This document shows, piece after piece, positions 55,051 to 63,041 of a DNA stretch of 64,000 nucleotides (position 1 is its first letter; each line of letters starts with the position of its first letter). Origin of the DNA: Psychrobacter coccoides (GTDB lineage Bacteria; Pseudomonadota; Gammaproteobacteria; Pseudomonadales; Moraxellaceae); assembly GCF_017498085.1 (NCBI RefSeq), contig NZ_JAGBKM010000011.1, positions 1 through 64,000 on the forward strand. The letters run 5' to 3'. The notes under the pieces are model-generated. The model worked only from the letters and a program-made list of their open reading frames with translations. It was not told the origin of the DNA and searched no databases. A program made the translations under genes and the position numbers.

Positions 55051-56619
55051 ATGTCGTTTGCTCAAGTCTATACTCGCTCCGTCGTTGGCCTGCATGCGCC
55101 AAAAGTCATCATTGAGGTGCATTTATCACAAGGCTTGCCAGCGCTTACTATCGTAGGTCTGCCAGAAGCGGCCGTACGTGAAAGCAAAGATAGAGTGCGC
55201 TCGGCGATTTTAAATTCAGGATTTCAATTTCCCAATCGCCGCTTGACGATTAACTTAGCACCAGCAGACCTGCCAAAAGATGGCGCAAGGCTAGACTTGC
55301 CGATAGCCATTGGTATCTTGGCCGCCAGTGGGCAGTTAGAGCCAGAAGTGTTGTCAGGGTTTGAGTTTATCGGTGAGCTGGCGCTAAATGGCAATCTGCG
55401 GCAAGTGACAGGCAGCTTGGCTGTCGCTCGAGCGATAAAAGCAGAGGCGTTGGCGGCACAGGCAGTGCAAGCATCAAAAATCAATGACCCACAACTGAGT
55501 GAGCCAAGACAAACAGTGCAGTTAATCGTACCGATAGATAATGGTGCAGAAGCCAGCCGGGTCGAGGGAGTAGGGATATTAGGCGCTCAGAGTCTCAAAG
55601 CAGTTTGTGACCATCTACAGGCGTTGACTGATCCAAGCGGCGCTTATGAGAGTTTGGAGGCAGTCCTACCCAGTGCAACTCCACAGCACGTAGGCTATAA
55701 AGTAGACTTGGCCGATGTCAAAGGTCAGCACCATGCTAGACGAGCCTTGGAGATCGCCGCTGCAGGTGGTCATTCGCTATTATTCACAGGGCCGCCAGGT
55801 TCGGGCAAGACCTTGATGGCATCGCGGCTACCGACTATCCTACCTGATTTAAGTGACGAAGATGCATTAGAGGTTGCCAGTACCTACTCAGTGGCAGACA
55901 GCGACTATGATTATGGCACTCGACCCTTTCGCCAAGTCCATCACACTATATCAGCCGTGGCTTTGGTCGGAGGGGGTTCACGCCCCAAACCTGGCGAGAT
56001 TACCCTTGCGAACAAGGGCGTTTTGTTTCTCGATGAATTACCAGAGTTTGATCGTACGGTATTAGAAGTATTGCGTCAGCCGCTTGAGGCCAAGCAAATC
56101 ACCATCAGTCGTGCCAACTCACAGATGACCTTTCCAGCCAACTTTCAACTGGTGGCGGCGATGAACCCTTGTCCGTGTGGCTATGATGGGGATGGCTCAG
56201 GGCGCTGTCGCTGTCGTCCTGAGCAAATCAAGCGTTATCAAGATAAGCTCTCAGGACCGCTATTAGATAGGATTGACCTACACATTACCGTTCCTGCACT
56301 ACCTATTGCTGATTTACAAAACAGTCAAGCTGGTGAAGCTTCCGAACAAGTACGTACTCGGGTGGCAGAGGCACATGAGCGACAACTGTCACGACAAAAA
56401 AAGGTCAATAATGAGCTCAGTCCGAGCGAGCTTGATCAGTTTATAAAGCTAGGAGAGGCAGAGCAGCAGTTGTTACAGATGGCTCAGCAACGCCTTAACT
56501 TGTCTGCTCGTGGTTATCATCGTGTACTACGTGTGGCACGGACGATTGCCGATCTTGCTGCTAGCAATGACATTACTAGCGCTCATGTATCCGAGGCATT
56601 GAGCTATCGTAGTAAGTGA
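55051..56619 (+). CDS. comM: ComM/YifB-family Mg-chelatase-like ATPase
   Basis: A 522-residue AAA+ helicase that promotes branch migration during natural transformation. The N-terminal Lon-protease-like domain (MSFAQVYTRSVVGLHAPKV to about residue 180) is followed by Walker A GPPGSGKTLMASRLP near 250. Walker B is VLFLDELPEFDRTVLEVLRQ near 327, and a zinc-type motif MNPCPCGYDGDG near 371. The C-terminal Mg-chelatase domain ends in DITSAHVSEALSYR. Length is typical (about 500). It stands alone, convergent with the cytochrome operon. Together with dprA it hints at competence. Confidence 0.94.
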   Translation: MSFAQVYTRSVVGLHAPKVIIEVHLSQGLPALTIVGLPEAAVRESKDRVRSAILNSGFQFPNRRLTINLAPADLPKDGARLDLPIAIGILAASGQLEPEVLSGFEFIGELALNGNLRQVTGSLAVARAIKAEALAAQAVQASKINDPQLSEPRQTVQLIVPIDNGAEASRVEGVGILGAQSLKAVCDHLQALTDPSGAYESLEAVLPSATPQHVGYKVDLADVKGQHHARRALEIAAAGGHSLLFTGPPGSGKTLMASRLPTILPDLSDEDALEVASTYSVADSDYDYGTRPFRQVHHTISAVALVGGGSRPKPGEITLANKGVLFLDELPEFDRTVLEVLRQPLEAKQITISRANSQMTFPANFQLVAAMNPCPCGYDGDGSGRCRCRPEQIKRYQDKLSGPLLDRIDLHITVPALPIADLQNSQAGEASEQVRTRVAEAHERQLSRQKKVNNELSPSELDQFIKLGEAEQQLLQMAQQRLNLSARGYHRVLRVARTIADLAASNDITSAHVSEALSYRSK

Positions 56620-56662: not shown

Positions 56663-57307
56663 TTAGACACTGGGGTCTGCATTTGGCGGCTTAGCATGTC
56701 TTAATTTTTCTACATCTTCAGCAGTTACGGTTTCATCAAAATCATTAAGCTCATTCATCACATACTGAGTGACTGCTGCCATCTGCTCATCATTCATCAT
56801 CGTATGGAACGAGGGCATACCACGGAAGCCATTGATTAAGATGTTGATGGTATAATATTTGGACTCCATCTTGCTGTTATTGGCCAGTGGTGGATAGTAG
56901 CCTGCACCAAATGCCCCTTCACCCTCATGCATATGACAGCCAGCACAGGAGTCATGATAGAGCTTTTTGCCGTCGGTCGTCACAAAAGCATTGGTGCCTT
57001 CGAACTTAGCTTCCCATTCAGTAAGGTCGGGGTCGTTTGCCATACTTGGTAGTGAGCTCGCATCAACGATATTGACTTTAGGCGCTCGCAGCTCTTCACG
57101 GGTCATATAGACACCGCCCCAAGCGCCAGTATTACGGCTCTCTTGATAGTCTAGCGCTTGCGCTGCCTCTTGTTCTTGTTTGCTTGCCACTGTCTCAGCA
57201 TCATCTGCTCGCTGACTACAACCTGATAATGCAGTGATGCTGCCTAAACTTAGCAACAGGAGCGCAACTGCTTTGGATTTCATGCTTTCCATGATTGTAT
57301 TGTCCAT
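56663..57307 (-). CDS. Lipoprotein c-type cytochrome (one haem)
   Basis: A 214-residue exported monohaem cytochrome. The signal peptide ends in a lipobox (ITALSGC), so the mature protein should be lipid-anchored at Cys30. A single haem-binding motif CAGCH is near residue 120, in SCAGCHMHEGEGAFGAGYY, and the likely axial Met is in GFRGMPSFHTM near residue 168. CAGAGGCA supports the ATG at 57307. It is last of a three-gene minus-strand unit, 70 bases after the amine oxidase, and is the most likely direct electron acceptor of that flavoprotein. Confidence 0.9.
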   Translation of the reverse strand: MDNTIMESMKSKAVALLLLSLGSITALSGCSQRADDAETVASKQEQEAAQALDYQESRNTGAWGGVYMTREELRAPKVNIVDASSLPSMANDPDLTEWEAKFEGTNAFVTTDGKKLYHDSCAGCHMHEGEGAFGAGYYPPLANNSKMESKYYTINILINGFRGMPSFHTMMNDEQMAAVTQYVMNELNDFDETVTAEDVEKLRHAKPPNADPSV

Positions 57308-57377
57308 GATTGCCTCTGAATTTTTATCGTTATAAGTTGAACCACATCGTTATAATGGCTTGGTTGTGCTAAATAAA

Positions 57378-58994
57378 CTAACCAAGCATTTTGGCTTTTT
57401 TGTGTAGGCGATTGGCAGTATCTAAACCAGACAAAATAGCGCCTTCTAACCAAGCAGGAATGTGTGAGCAATGTTCGCCCGTCAGCACGATACGGTTGTC
57501 GATACTACAAAGCGTATCGTAATGTTGATCACGACTAGAGTCACTCCAAATACCATAACATCCTAAAGTCCAAGGAATGCGGTGCCATACTACCGAAGTG
57601 CCCGAGCGGAACTCTTTTGGATACTGTGGATGAATATACTTACCGTAGGCAAGCGCTACATTGATACGCTCTTGCGGCGTCAAGGTATTAAACTTATAAG
57701 AAGTAGCGCCGAAGCCATACGCCCCTAGCAGTACGCCCGTGCCATCTTTAAACATATTGCCGGATGGATAGGAAATTTGTCTGATCGGCATGTCAGTATA
57801 GGTGACACCGCCATAGATCCATTCGTCCTCTTCCCAAAAGCGGCGCTTAAACTCTAACCCTACTTTATAGGAGGTGTCGTAAGGCACTGCTGCCATCGCT
57901 TGTTTCATGGGTTTTGAGACATTGATATCAATCTGGGTCAATACCGTTAGGGGAATATTACAGATACACCAGTCGGCACGTACGGTTTTCATTGGGCCTT
58001 CTGGATTATTGCTATCGACATAATTGACCGTTACGCCACTGTCATCTTGATGAATCTTAGTGACTTTGGCATTGAACTCAATCATATCAGCACATTCACG
58101 GGTGAATGCTTCACCGATTTTTTCCATCCCGCCAACGGGCTGAAACATGGTAGGCTGGTGACCGTAGGTGGTATGCTCACCGTAAATATCCGCCCACATG
58201 CCTGAACTTAATATCTCGCTAATGGGTAGCGGTTTTGAGGGCTGTGCATTTGGCATTAAGCCGCCACCTGGAAAAACACTAAAGCCACGATGCTTGGTCG
58301 TTGCATTACTAGCACGGTAGCGAAAGTCCTTATCAAGGACACCCCAGCCTCGCAAACCTTCTAGCAGTTTTTCTTTATCTTCACTATTGACTGAGCGATC
58401 GAGCCCGCCGACATTTACAGATTTTGATAGCAGCTCAGAGACATGACCTCTGATGTCATTTTTGACATCGCCCAGACGCTGCGGCACCCCATTAAAGTGG
58501 TCAGTACGATGCAAGTAAGCACGGTCGTTGGTCTGAATAAAGGGTTGCAGCTCTACGCCAAACTTTTTGCAGTAGTGAAACACAGCATAATGATGGCTTG
58601 GCAAGCGCCATGGACCACCATTCAAATAGTTACCCTCTTCAAAGTCACAAGTGACCTCTTCGCCGCCAAGCTCAGTATATTTTTCCCCACCGTTTAGCGA
58701 CCAGCAGCGACCACCGCCACGGTTTTGATACTCAAGTACTTTGACATCGTAGCCTGCTTTACGCAGCTCATAGGCGGCAGTTAGGCCGCCAAGACCTGCA
58801 CCAAGGATGACAATACTGGCACCAGGAGGCGCACCTTCTAAGTCCATAGATTCTTTGAAGGTAGATTCTGAGGCAAACCCTAAAGTGGTCATTGCCTGAT
58901 ACATGGCGGTTGCTCCGGCTGTTTTACCGATCATCGAGAGCAGTTGACGCCGTGTGGGTGATTGAAGCATATCTTTCATGTCTTTCATTTCCAT
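57378..58994 (-). CDS. Tat-exported flavin amine oxidase/dehydrogenase
   Basis: A 538-residue monoamine-oxidase-fold flavoprotein. The N-terminus has a twin-arginine signal (SPTRRQLLSMIGKTAG, residues 12-27). FAD is bound by SIVILGAGLGGLTAAYELRKAG near residue 60 and GGRCWSLNG near 93. The C-terminal FAD motif is RIVLTGEHCSHIPAWLEGA near residue 506. The family oxidises amines to imines or aldehydes and ammonia. Location between two c-type cytochromes and Tat export suggest it is a periplasmic dehydrogenase that reduces cytochrome c, as known for nicotine-degrading NicA2, rather than an O2-using oxidase. Substrate unknown. AAAAGGAC precedes the ATG. Confidence 0.92.
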   Translation of the reverse strand: MEMKDMKDMLQSPTRRQLLSMIGKTAGATAMYQAMTTLGFASESTFKESMDLEGAPPGASIVILGAGLGGLTAAYELRKAGYDVKVLEYQNRGGGRCWSLNGGEKYTELGGEEVTCDFEEGNYLNGGPWRLPSHHYAVFHYCKKFGVELQPFIQTNDRAYLHRTDHFNGVPQRLGDVKNDIRGHVSELLSKSVNVGGLDRSVNSEDKEKLLEGLRGWGVLDKDFRYRASNATTKHRGFSVFPGGGLMPNAQPSKPLPISEILSSGMWADIYGEHTTYGHQPTMFQPVGGMEKIGEAFTRECADMIEFNAKVTKIHQDDSGVTVNYVDSNNPEGPMKTVRADWCICNIPLTVLTQIDINVSKPMKQAMAAVPYDTSYKVGLEFKRRFWEEDEWIYGGVTYTDMPIRQISYPSGNMFKDGTGVLLGAYGFGATSYKFNTLTPQERINVALAYGKYIHPQYPKEFRSGTSVVWHRIPWTLGCYGIWSDSSRDQHYDTLCSIDNRIVLTGEHCSHIPAWLEGAILSGLDTANRLHKKAKMLG

Positions 58995-59098
58995 GTCCTT
59001 TTGGTATGACGTTCAGTTATTATGGTTTGTCTTTTTATTTACCGTTATGTCAGTGACCCTAAATTTTATTATCAAATCATTTTTAGCAAAAACTTGTC

Positions 59099-60538
59099 TT
59101 ATTGATGACGTCTACTGCGTACAATAGCCCGAATAATAAAGAAGACGATGACAAGGGCGACAATAATACCGATAACTGCCAGTAGGCCTGCGTATTTGAT
59201 CAAAAACGGTCTTTGGTCTACGCCCACTGCGATACGATTGACATCAGCTGCATCCACATCACTACTGGTCAAACCACCGAAGTTGATGCGGACATAGTTG
59301 GCGATACTGGCCACTTGCTCGTCATTTAGCTCATCAGCAAACCCTGGCATGATGGGCGAGGTATTGGTACTGCCTTCTATCCCGTGCAAAATCATATTGA
59401 CTAACGCATCAGGTTTTTCACGGCGAATACTACTTAAACCGACGATAGGCGAGTACTGAGCATCAGGCTGACCATAACCATCAACGCCATGACAGCTGGC
59501 ACAGGTGGCCAAATATAAAGCTTCAGGTGAGTGACTACCATTCGCTACCTCTGCTTTAGCCTCAGCCAAATATCTCTTTTGGGCGACCAAATCATGAGTG
59601 ATTGACTCATTTATTGGACTGGGTAAGCGTGAGGCATCGACTGCAGTGACCTTATCATCCGTCTGAATGGCAGGCACTGCTTTTAGGTAAGAAGCAATGG
59701 CTCCTAAGTCCTCATTCTTTAGGTAGCGAGTACTGTGAGCGACGGCCTCTCCCATAGGACCACCAGCAAAGGCGCGTTGATCAAGCTCACCGGTACGTAA
59801 ATAAGTGACAATATCTTGCTCGCTCCAACTGCCGATACCGCTAGATTTATCAGGGGTAATATTTGGTGCATACCATGACCCAAGTGGTGCTCCTGATAAA
59901 TACTTACTGGTATCAAAGCCCATCGTACTATTACGTGGTGTATGACAAGTACCACAATGCCCCAAAGTATCCACTAAATACTCACCACGTTGCTGGGTTT
60001 CAGTTAGACCCTCACGTGGGGTGGTAGCAGGTATATTAAGCACATTCCAGCCCAGCATGAGCGTGCGAATATTAAAGGGAAAGGGTAGATCCGTTTTATA
60101 ATCGGGTGCCTGATCATAGACGGGTACTGTCTGCAGATAAGCAAATAGCGCACTAATGTCTTCATCAGTCATACTATTGTAAGAAGGGTAAGGCATGGCT
60201 GGATATAGCATGTGATCAGGCGCACGTCCTTTTTGCAGCGCCTTTTTTAGATCTGCTTCAGTATAGTTGCCAATACCATAACGTTTAGAGGGGGTAATAT
60301 TGGTGGCATAGATACTGCCCATAGGGGTTTCGATGGCTACACCGCCGGTATAGTCTTCACGGTGGCATGCCATACAGTCGGCGGCACGTGCAATATATGC
60401 CCCCTTATTGACCAAATCACTATTGGCTGGGCTGACATTGGGTAAGTTCGCACTAGGAACACTTGCACCTTGAGCCATTGCGGCGCTAGAGGTGATACCG
60501 ATGGCAAGCATCGACAACATCACAGAGAGTGGCTTCAT
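59099..60538 (-). CDS. Membrane-anchored three-haem cytochrome c (AdhB-like)
   Basis: A 479-residue exported cytochrome with three haem motifs: CMACH at residues 55-59, CGTCH near 200 and CASCH near 345. The signal peptide ends AMA-Q near residue 22. One C-terminal helix (LLAVIGIIVALVIVFFIIRA) should anchor it in the inner membrane facing the periplasm. The three-domain layout matches the cytochrome subunit of alcohol/aldehyde dehydrogenase complexes, which passes electrons to quinone or oxidase. I place the start at MKPLSV (60538), with GAGGATATT upstream, not at 60574. It is first in the unit with the amine oxidase (104-base gap) and the lipoprotein cytochrome. Confidence 0.92.
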   Translation of the reverse strand: MKPLSVMLSMLAIGITSSAAMAQGASVPSANLPNVSPANSDLVNKGAYIARAADCMACHREDYTGGVAIETPMGSIYATNITPSKRYGIGNYTEADLKKALQKGRAPDHMLYPAMPYPSYNSMTDEDISALFAYLQTVPVYDQAPDYKTDLPFPFNIRTLMLGWNVLNIPATTPREGLTETQQRGEYLVDTLGHCGTCHTPRNSTMGFDTSKYLSGAPLGSWYAPNITPDKSSGIGSWSEQDIVTYLRTGELDQRAFAGGPMGEAVAHSTRYLKNEDLGAIASYLKAVPAIQTDDKVTAVDASRLPSPINESITHDLVAQKRYLAEAKAEVANGSHSPEALYLATCASCHGVDGYGQPDAQYSPIVGLSSIRREKPDALVNMILHGIEGSTNTSPIMPGFADELNDEQVASIANYVRINFGGLTSSDVDAADVNRIAVGVDQRPFLIKYAGLLAVIGIIVALVIVFFIIRAIVRSRRHQ

Positions 60539-60669
60539 AATATCCTCATATAGCTGGCATATAGTGGCTATCAAAATTAAAAAAAGTAATATAAAACAAT
60601 CATAAAAGCTTAAATATCACTCAATATAAAATTCGCTTTTATGGCGCCGTGGTATAAGTTGATAATAGG

Positions 60670-60710: not shown

Positions 60711-61029
60711 GGTATACAAAGTATGGTTATGACTGTTTTATGGTCATGACCTATATTGGTTTATTTTATGCTTTGTAAGTTATCAATATATGCTGGGCTT
60801 TATGGTACTTACTGTTTTTTTAACTTATGTTTACTATTTCTAAGATAAGACTATTTCGCTACTCTTGCTTGATTATTAACTTATTAGCTGTATATATTTA
60901 CAAAAGTTTAAATAACCTACAGAGATGTTGTACAGGTGTCCATTGTTAATATTTTTAAATATATAATAATAAAAAATATTTTTATAAAACAATGTAAAAC
61001 AATGACTTATAGGGTAATAACTAAGATTC

Positions 61030-61065
61030 ACCTTAATTGTGAATAAATATACTCACAATTAAGGT
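61030..61065. repeat. Perfect 13-bp inverted repeat
   Basis: ACCTTAATTGTGA (61030-61042) and TCACAATTAAGGT (61053-61065) are exact inverted copies with a 10-base AT-only spacer except one C. No T tract follows on either strand. It is about 210 bases after the fhs stop codon and about 490 before the cytochrome start. Confidence 0.6.
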
Positions 61066-61275
61066 AGAGATGGATCATGAATTACTGAGTTTGCTGGTTT
61101 TTTTGTATGTACATAAAATATACAAAGATAGAGGCTGTTTTTGGAGATAAAAAGGTTGAATCATAAAATTTAATAGGTAGCAACAGTGAAATGAGAATAA
61201 TTAAAGATAGGGTTGAATATAAGTATTAAATATCGAGAGGGGTAGGCAGCGGAGTACACATGCAAGTAGGCTTAT

Positions 61276-62985
61276 TCAAAATAAACCAATGATATTCCCC
61301 TTGTCATCTAAATCAATATGCTCAGCAGAAGGACGGTTGGGCAGACCGGGCATTTTCATAATAGGACCACAGATCACCACGATAAATCCAGCACCAGATG
61401 AAATACTGATATCACGTACATGAATATCAAAGCCAGTTGGTCGTCCAAGGCGTCTGGTATCATCACTCAAAGAGTACTGAGTCTTGGCGATACATACTGG
61501 CATCTTATCAAGGTTTAGAGCCTCTAAGCGACGTATTTTGGCCATGGCTGAGCGACTGATATCGATGTCATCGGCACCATAGACCTTTTGAGCAATCGTG
61601 CGAATTTTATCAGCAATGCTGTTGTCACTGTCGTAAGCCAAGCGAAATTGGCTAGGTTTATGACTATTATCATTGAGCAGTTTAAGTAAAGTGTTGGCTA
61701 ACTCTTCACCGCCAGCACCGCCTTTTTCCCACACTTGCGTCAGCGCGACTTCTACGCCTCTGGATAGGCAGGCTTGTCGTACCAGATCAATCTCAGCGTC
61801 GGTATCACTGGCGAACTGATTGATGGCAACGACTACGGGCAGTCCATAGACATCTTGCATGTTTTCGATATGCTTCATCAGATTTGGCAGACCTTGCTCA
61901 AGTGCTGGCAAGTCTTCAGTCGTTAGCTCGTCTTTAGCGACCCCACCATTGTATTTCAACGCTCTGATGGTGGCGACGATAACGGCCGCATCTGGCGTCA
62001 GTCCTGACAAGCGACACTTAATGTCACAGAATTTTTGCGCACCAAGATCAGCGCCAAAACCTGCCTCAGTAAGGGTATAGTCGGCCAGATGCATGGCAAC
62101 GCGGGTAGCAATGACAGAGTTACAGCCGTGGGCAATATTGGCAAATGGTCCGCCATGGACGATGGCCGGTGTACCCTCAATGGTTTGTACTAGGTTGGGC
62201 TTGATAGCTTCTTTTAGAAGCACTGCCATAGCGCCATGAGCATTGAGATCTTTGGCATAAATGGGCTGTTTGCGGTGGTTAAAAGCAACTAAAATATTAC
62301 CTAAACGCTGTTTTAAGTCGCTCAAGTCTGTCGCTAAGCAAAAGATAGCCATTACTTCAGAGGCGACAGTGATATCGAAGCCATCTTCACGCATCACACC
62401 GTCTGTGGTTTTGCCAATGCCGCTGATAATATTACGCAGCTGGCGATCATTCATATCCACTGCTCGTCGCCAAAACACTTGTTTTGGGTCGATGTTGAGC
62501 GTATTACCTTGGTAGATATGGTTGTCAATCAGCGCTGCCAATAGGTTATTTGCTGCTCCAATGGCGTGAAAGTCTCCAGTAAAGTGCAGATTGATGTCTT
62601 CCATAGGTAGGACTTGCGCATAACCGCCGCCAGCTGCGCCACCTTTAATCCCAAACACTGGGCCGATGGATGGCTCACGTATGGCAACTGTTGTTCTCTC
62701 ACCGCTTTTTTCTTGCTGATGAATGCGATTTAATGCATCAGCCAGGCCAATCGTAACCGTGGTCTTACCTTCACCAGCGGGTGTTGGGTTGATAGCAGTG
62801 ACCAATATTAATTTGCTTTGCTTGCTTTTAGCCGGCATGGCAAACACATCAGTGGGGTTTATTTTTGCTTTATAATGCCCATAAGGCTCTATATTGACAG
62901 TTGATAAACCAAGCTTTTCAGCAATGAGGGTGATTGATTGTAAGGTGGTATTTTGGGCGATGGTGATGTCGCTAGGTACAGTCAT
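61276..62985 (-). CDS. fhs: Formate-tetrahydrofolate ligase
   Basis: A 569-residue ATP-dependent enzyme forming 10-formyl-THF from formate. The P-loop is AINPTPAGEGKTTVTIGLAD near residue 66. EPSIGPVFGIKGGAAGGGYAQV near 106 and VATIRALKYNGG near 340 are signature stretches. The C-terminus ends IDLDDKGNIIGLF. Length is typical (about 556). ATG at 62985 is preferred to a TTG six bases upstream. It supplies one-carbon units, for example for fmt. Its stop is followed by the long AT-rich spacer; gph lies 56 bases upstream on the same strand. Confidence 0.96.
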   Translation of the reverse strand: MTVPSDITIAQNTTLQSITLIAEKLGLSTVNIEPYGHYKAKINPTDVFAMPAKSKQSKLILVTAINPTPAGEGKTTVTIGLADALNRIHQQEKSGERTTVAIREPSIGPVFGIKGGAAGGGYAQVLPMEDINLHFTGDFHAIGAANNLLAALIDNHIYQGNTLNIDPKQVFWRRAVDMNDRQLRNIISGIGKTTDGVMREDGFDITVASEVMAIFCLATDLSDLKQRLGNILVAFNHRKQPIYAKDLNAHGAMAVLLKEAIKPNLVQTIEGTPAIVHGGPFANIAHGCNSVIATRVAMHLADYTLTEAGFGADLGAQKFCDIKCRLSGLTPDAAVIVATIRALKYNGGVAKDELTTEDLPALEQGLPNLMKHIENMQDVYGLPVVVAINQFASDTDAEIDLVRQACLSRGVEVALTQVWEKGGAGGEELANTLLKLLNDNSHKPSQFRLAYDSDNSIADKIRTIAQKVYGADDIDISRSAMAKIRRLEALNLDKMPVCIAKTQYSLSDDTRRLGRPTGFDIHVRDISISSGAGFIVVICGPIMKMPGLPNRPSAEHIDLDDKGNIIGLF

Positions 62986-63041
62986 ACTCAAGGTCTCGTG
63001 ACAGTCTTAAAGAATTGTAGATAGCATAGCGGCTGATTTAC

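Follow-up and report, generated by a model that had tools for sequence, protein, structure and literature searches.

A three-gene cluster in Psychrobacter coccoides that probably encodes a periplasmic, cytochrome c-dependent L-amino acid dehydrogenase

Introduction

In Psychrobacter coccoides, a gene for a flavoprotein with a twin-arginine translocation (Tat) signal lies between the genes for two c-type cytochromes, an arrangement that raises the question of what this enzyme oxidises and whether its electrons pass to oxygen or to the respiratory chain. The cluster is located on the minus strand of contig NZ_JAGBKM010000011.1 (assembly GCF_017498085.1), of which positions 1 to 64,000 were analysed (referred to below as the window). 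An initial annotation had described the cluster as a periplasmic amine dehydrogenase with two dedicated cytochromes c, had cited NicA2 as the precedent and had recognised no named system. Our analysis gives good support to a dehydrogenase with dedicated cytochromes, and we consider it probable that the operon encodes a periplasmic, cytochrome c-dependent L-amino acid dehydrogenase which feeds respiration via two dedicated haem proteins.

Gene content and co-inheritance

All three open reading frames (ORFs) are intact and correspond to their first descriptions. In minus-strand order they are the triheme membrane-anchored cytochrome c (P0003, 479 amino acids, 59099..60538), the Tat-signal flavoprotein (538 amino acids, 57378..58994), which is present as a single copy in the P. 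coccoides genome, and the monohaem lipoprotein cytochrome c (P0001, 214 amino acids, 56663..57307). The intergenic gaps measure 104 and 70 bp, and a search of both on the minus strand found no terminator-like site; from the spacing and the conservation of the cluster, the three genes appear to form one operon.

Across 105 Psychrobacter genomes, the flavoprotein was present in 82 and the triheme cytochrome in exactly those 82, as was the monohaem cytochrome, of which three further genomes (G1126, G1128 and G1132) retain residues 114-213 only. The co-occurrence of flavoprotein and triheme (Fisher p ~1e-23, a value that ignores shared ancestry) is linkage beyond chance, and almost all fetched Psychrobacter loci have the three genes side by side, as do those of Moraxella, Rappaport and Palleronia. 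In the G1126 remnant the N-terminus of the triheme is fused to the C-terminus of the monohaem cytochrome and the flavoprotein is gone; one internal deletion therefore took out the middle of the operon, and we read the loss of the operon as that of one unit. Lack of co-occurrence in other genomes had been named at the outset as an observation that would speak against the annotated function, and the function survives this comparison.

The decayed clusters at L141 (G1126:C10, 4167-5070) and L142 (G1132:C24), in which the 5′ part of the triheme gene is joined to the 3′ part of the monohaem gene with loss of the flavoprotein, adjoin a PAP2 phosphatase and a sensor kinase, the same neighbours as those of the Moraxella atlantae cluster (L068). 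In many Psychrobacter (~20 genomes; L019, L025, L028, L032, L040) the whole three-gene cluster is present twice. The second copy, arranged in tandem in L019, has a flavoprotein that is ~80% identical and, in L028 and L040, a triheme that stops before the C-terminal membrane helix.

A kinetic survey concluded that a Tat signal and a neighbouring cytochrome gene together predict well a dehydrogenase that reacts poorly with O2, and that characterised relatives with both features react slowly with O2 and fast with cytochrome (PMC12224317). Both of these NicA2-like signposts are present here, and we read the flavoprotein as a dehydrogenase because this combination predicts one and because the genes are inherited all or none; in this respect the periplasmic dehydrogenase first proposed, and the NicA2 precedent invoked for it, were well chosen. 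The superfamily, the Tat signal and the adjacent cytochrome c, the predicted acceptor, are shared with NicA2/Pnao-CycN and with the amine dehydrogenases of Akram et al. 2025 (PMC9396064, PMC12224317). However, the NicA2/Pnao clades were collected with a NicA2 query and act on amines, whereas the Psychrobacter enzyme falls into the L-amino acid oxidase (LAAO) branch and is accompanied by a second cytochrome, the triheme. The survey began from NicA2, and its text contains no 'L-amino acid', RidA or Psychrobacter (PMC12224317).

Family and active site of the flavoprotein

The flavoprotein matches Pfam Amino_oxidase (E 4.6e-52) and, among the NCBIfam models, none at cut-off. Its twin-arginine motif is TRRQLLSMIG, with R15 and R16 invariant; since relatives align from residue 6, translation may begin at a Met slightly inside the ORF. 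The PDB search returned the Rhodococcus opacus LAAO (roLAAO; 2jae, E 2e-81, residues 51-534) as the closest solved protein, with snake-venom and ancestral LAAOs far behind as the second-best group (~1e-39) and monoamine oxidase (MAO)-type and putrescine oxidases at E 1e-13 and weaker, while none of the 60 best matches, by labels alone, was a nicotine oxidoreductase. These similarities assign the flavoprotein to the LAAO branch of the flavoprotein amine oxidoreductase superfamily. The AlphaFold model, made from a shallow alignment (predicted local distance difference test, pLDDT, 64), has 2JAE as its best fold match (Z 31.9, 429 residues, root-mean-square deviation 6.9), with the venom LAAOs at Z 26-27 (at most 26.7) and MAO-type enzymes at 25 at most.

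Across the 108 aligned sequences, Arg130 at the carboxylate site and Lys377 near flavin N5 are both invariant, and Tyr426, also of the carboxylate site, is present in 105; Arg130 and Tyr426 are the residues that we take to be equivalent to Arg84 and Tyr371 of roLAAO. A comparison of LAAO structures describes the Arg and Tyr as holding the substrate carboxylate and the Lys as holding an ordered (catalytic) water (PMC9331233). The Psychrobacter enzyme resembles roLAAO both in fold and in the active-site Arg, Tyr, Lys and Trp. Because the nearest structures are LAAOs and the carboxylate Arg and Tyr are conserved, the comparison points to an L-alpha-amino acid rather than a simple amine as the substrate.

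Relatives, RidA and evolutionary order

RidA deaminates imino acids made by L-amino-acid-oxidising enzymes, and in other Pseudomonadota the flavoprotein gene is followed by those for a monohaem cytochrome c and RidA, the latter almost always with a signal peptide and with Arg105 kept. A survey of gene context at 114 loci, many of them near-copies from one genus, found monohaem plus triheme at 72, monohaem plus RidA at 22, RidA alone at 10, monohaem alone at 9 (two of them Psychrobacter with a split triheme gene) and none of these at 1. Exported RidA adjoins 22 of the 31 cytochrome-linked homologues without triheme and 10 of the 11 homologues without a matching monohaem cytochrome, but RidA and triheme occur together at 0 of the 114 loci, and no RidA was found in the fetched flanks of triheme-type loci. 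Class-wide searches, evenly sampled and with few matches, set limits on spread rather than on frequency.

In the maximum-likelihood tree the triheme type forms one group with support 100/99, which branches from within the cytochrome-linked group, among cytochrome-only and RidA types. Its monophyly and nested position make a single recruitment of the triheme probable, in a lineage whose cluster is missing ridA. Members of the type come from Moraxellaceae, from Palleronia (Roseobacteraceae) and from another family (G138), a distribution that suggests horizontal transfer.

Among more distant clusters (L125, L128-L132, L078), TonB-dependent receptor-like genes lie near a flavoprotein-RidA pair, which suggests an imported peptide or amino-acid-bearing substrate there. 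In one distant homologue a diheme cytochrome of 202 amino acids (L127:7241-7849) lies between flavoprotein and RidA, where the role may be filled by a cytochrome of another family.

The closest described arrangement is lao-cccA-ridA of Gluconacetobacter diazotrophicus (GDI2456-GDI2454), in which a Tn5 insertion in lao abolishes production of indole-3-acetic acid (IAA) and leaves tryptophan unconverted, and which its authors also report from Caulobacter and Xanthomonas (PMC5053998). The published lao primers for quantitative PCR decode to YPSHGYF and QVIHPNY, which are motifs of the present clade, and the cccA primers (AIYQHV and NYVRSH) and ridA primers (ASTIYL and KLGKID) likewise fit clade motifs, an indirect indication that the two systems are homologous. 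Both have a Tat flavoprotein of the LAAO branch and an adjacent monohaem cytochrome c. The G. diazotrophicus set, unlike that of Psychrobacter, has ridA and no triheme described, whereas Psychrobacter has the triheme, a lipoprotein monohaem cytochrome with an N-terminal extension, and a cluster without ridA. The view that this was not a named system therefore held in part: the lao-cccA-ridA core has been described (PMC5053998), though little studied, but the arrangement with triheme in place of RidA is apparently undescribed in the open-licence literature searched. In that literature, looking for operons of amine oxidases and cytochromes in Psychrobacter brought up no paper on the present genes.

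Most Psychrobacter strains come from the sea, from food or from animals, habitats that argue against the idea that the enzyme serves chiefly to make its product rather than to supply electrons, with indolepyruvate or other 2-oxo acids acting as signals as in the auxin synthesis of G. diazotrophicus. The phenotype of the lao mutant favours such a role (PMC5053998), while the very broad substrate range of roLAAO, in the part of that paper citing Geueke and Hummel, does not, and we regard a signalling function as very unlikely.

The same homologue bears on the amine substrate of the initial annotation, according to which a biogenic or alkyl amine would be oxidised and electrons passed to both cytochromes. 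Membership of the NicA2/Pnao superfamily, together with the Tat signal and the neighbouring cytochrome gene (PMC9396064, PMC12224317), and the generic Pfam match are compatible with an amine, but the enzyme groups with LAAOs and not with monoamine oxidase, keeps the carboxylate Arg and Tyr and has relatives linked to exported RidA, and for these reasons the amine was dropped as the leading substrate. The G. diazotrophicus homologue is, moreover, needed for the conversion of tryptophan (PMC5053998), and an amine dehydrogenase now seems unlikely.

The two cytochromes and the route of electrons

The triheme cytochrome belongs to the AdhB/FdhC family, with the cytochrome subunit of fructose dehydrogenase (FDH; 7w2j_C, E 5.6e-96) as its best PDB match, followed by subunits of flavin adenine dinucleotide (FAD) glucose dehydrogenase and pyrroloquinoline quinone (PQQ) alcohol dehydrogenase. 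It has a signal peptide, three CXXCH motifs (C55, C195 and C346) and a C-terminal transmembrane helix at ~445-470; the three CXXCH motifs are invariant in 10 homologues, as are Met115, Met262 and Met397, the likely haem axial ligands. Triheme subunits of this family pass electrons to ubiquinone, a step marked as not experimentally verified for FDH (PMC9171043). Three haems, a signal peptide and a C-terminal hydrophobic segment are thus shared with the subunits of fructose, gluconate and alcohol dehydrogenases (FdhC, AdhB; 7w2j, 8gy2), whose reduction of ubiquinone is known or presumed (PMC9171043); however, FdhC and AdhB partner glucose-methanol-choline (GMC) flavoproteins, PQQ or molybdenum enzymes, whereas the partner here is a flavoprotein of the amine oxidase superfamily. 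A second triheme of the same family, 39% identical, is encoded elsewhere in P. coccoides (L084:1375-3697; G000:C2:47644-48849) and is followed by a 310-amino-acid multi-haem lipoprotein cytochrome; in the 4.2 kb fetched we saw no gene for a dehydrogenase.

The monohaem cytochrome has a lipobox (LSGC) and one CAGCH motif, and matches Pfam Cytochrome_CBB3 (E 1.4e-13); its start may be residue 6 or 9. A comparison of N-termini showed an extension with a conserved WGG/A-VY motif in Moraxellaceae copies only; RidA-type clusters have monohaem cytochromes that lack it, as do the copies from Palleronia and G138. Two cbb3-type oxidase loci occur in the P. coccoides genome, and such oxidases could take electrons from cytochrome c. 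A second, shorter cbb3-like set (L120; G000:C34:841-2845) comprises a CcoN-like protein of 429 amino acids, a CcoO-like protein and a monohaem protein, and adjoins transposase genes.

Gene content, homology, conserved residues, linkage and the evolutionary sequence of gains and losses are the observations behind the following scheme, whose substrate class, acceptor, order of electron transfer and quinone end point we infer. The Tat-exported flavoprotein would bind an L-amino acid by its carboxylate through Arg130 and Tyr426, and transfer of the C-alpha hydride to FAD would yield a 2-imino acid, to be hydrolysed to a 2-oxo acid and ammonium either spontaneously or through an exported RidA whose gene lies elsewhere (L116). 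Reduced flavin (FADH2) would be reoxidised in one-electron steps by the monohaem lipoprotein cytochrome, not by O2, and the triheme would then hand the electrons to ubiquinone, as related subunits of fructose, gluconate and alcohol dehydrogenases do; alternatively, the monohaem lipoprotein may deliver them directly to a cbb3 oxidase. The monohaem cytochrome appears to be the older partner because homologues without triheme keep it beside the flavoprotein. This argues against a variant of the scheme in which the triheme is the direct flavin acceptor in a tight, fructose-dehydrogenase-like complex and the monohaem cytochrome a downstream shuttle to the cbb3 oxidase; flavoprotein and triheme subunit do occur together in FdhC/GadC-type complexes (PMC9171043), and two acceptors would otherwise be redundant, but we judge this order rather doubtful. 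It is conceivable, and we propose it tentatively, that the flavoprotein captured the triheme module of sugar and alcohol dehydrogenases and that the operon forms a respiratory L-amino acid:ubiquinone oxidoreductase; such a membrane complex would connect the oxidation of L-amino acids in the periplasm directly with the quinone pool, with no H2O2 formed, and would make the ancestral exported RidA dispensable in the operon.

Three points weigh against a cytochrome-dependent L-amino acid dehydrogenase. First, the predicted fold is of middling confidence, given its pLDDT. Secondly, RidA lies outside the operon in this species: no clear ortholog of the operon RidA, cytosolic or unlinked, was found, and the best candidate, the unlinked and exported L116 protein (L116:1333-1827; G000:C8), keeps the Arg105 and Glu120 positions, but its part in the pathway is a guess because it is 30-37% identical to the operon type. 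Thirdly, the N5 lysine tied to O2 reactivity is retained, although this is uninformative since NicA2 has a lysine too; with Lys377 present as in NicA2, absence of the lysine was unusable as a dehydrogenase marker.

The lysine, as an aid to the reaction with O2, would also fit a true LAAO that produces periplasmic H2O2 in an antimicrobial or biofilm role, the cytochromes serving another task such as peroxide handling. The closest characterised relatives are indeed oxidases; roLAAO itself has been characterised as an O2-using enzyme, unlike the function proposed here, and we know of no cytochrome partner for it. Strict co-inheritance with two cytochromes and the rule of Tat signal plus cytochrome neighbour (PMC12224317) nevertheless argue against an oxidase, as do the cytochrome c maturation (ccm) mutants of G. 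diazotrophicus, which are blocked in the pathway and make 5% of IAA in the work as cited by PMC5053998, and we consider an oxidase improbable.

Many 'amine oxidases' have recently turned out to be dehydrogenases that use cytochrome, and a cytochrome-dependent L-amino acid dehydrogenase would extend this finding into the LAAO branch; for that branch the papers searched contained genetic evidence (lao-cccA-ridA and auxin) and no biochemistry. It predicts that bacterial 'L-amino acid oxidases' encoded beside cytochrome genes are respiratory dehydrogenases releasing 2-oxo acids and ammonium outside the cytoplasm. Recruitment of the triheme would be a natural experiment in which electron-acceptor modules are swapped between unrelated flavoprotein families and, as the set is co-inherited in a culturable genus, the electron route is open to gene-deletion tests.

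Upstream region and neighbouring genes

Aligned across 10 orthologues, the otherwise divergent upstream sequences contain a conserved island at 60838..60911 on the minus strand (TTTTGTAAA...AAGTTA...AGCGAAATAGTCTTA), a candidate promoter or operator of the operon. The same alignment shows that the triheme gene is conserved at its start and over its ribosome-binding region (60530..60563, minus strand; CAGCTATATGAGGATATTATGAAGCC). The cluster is flanked by comM (55051-56619, plus strand) and by a formate-tetrahydrofolate ligase gene (61276-62991, minus strand), both named from reading of the ORF sequences. An inverted repeat with 17-bp arms (CCTTAATTGTGA...TCACAATTAAGG) is located upstream of the operon at 61029-61066 of the window, ~210 bp downstream of the ligase gene, with terminator or operator as its candidate roles.

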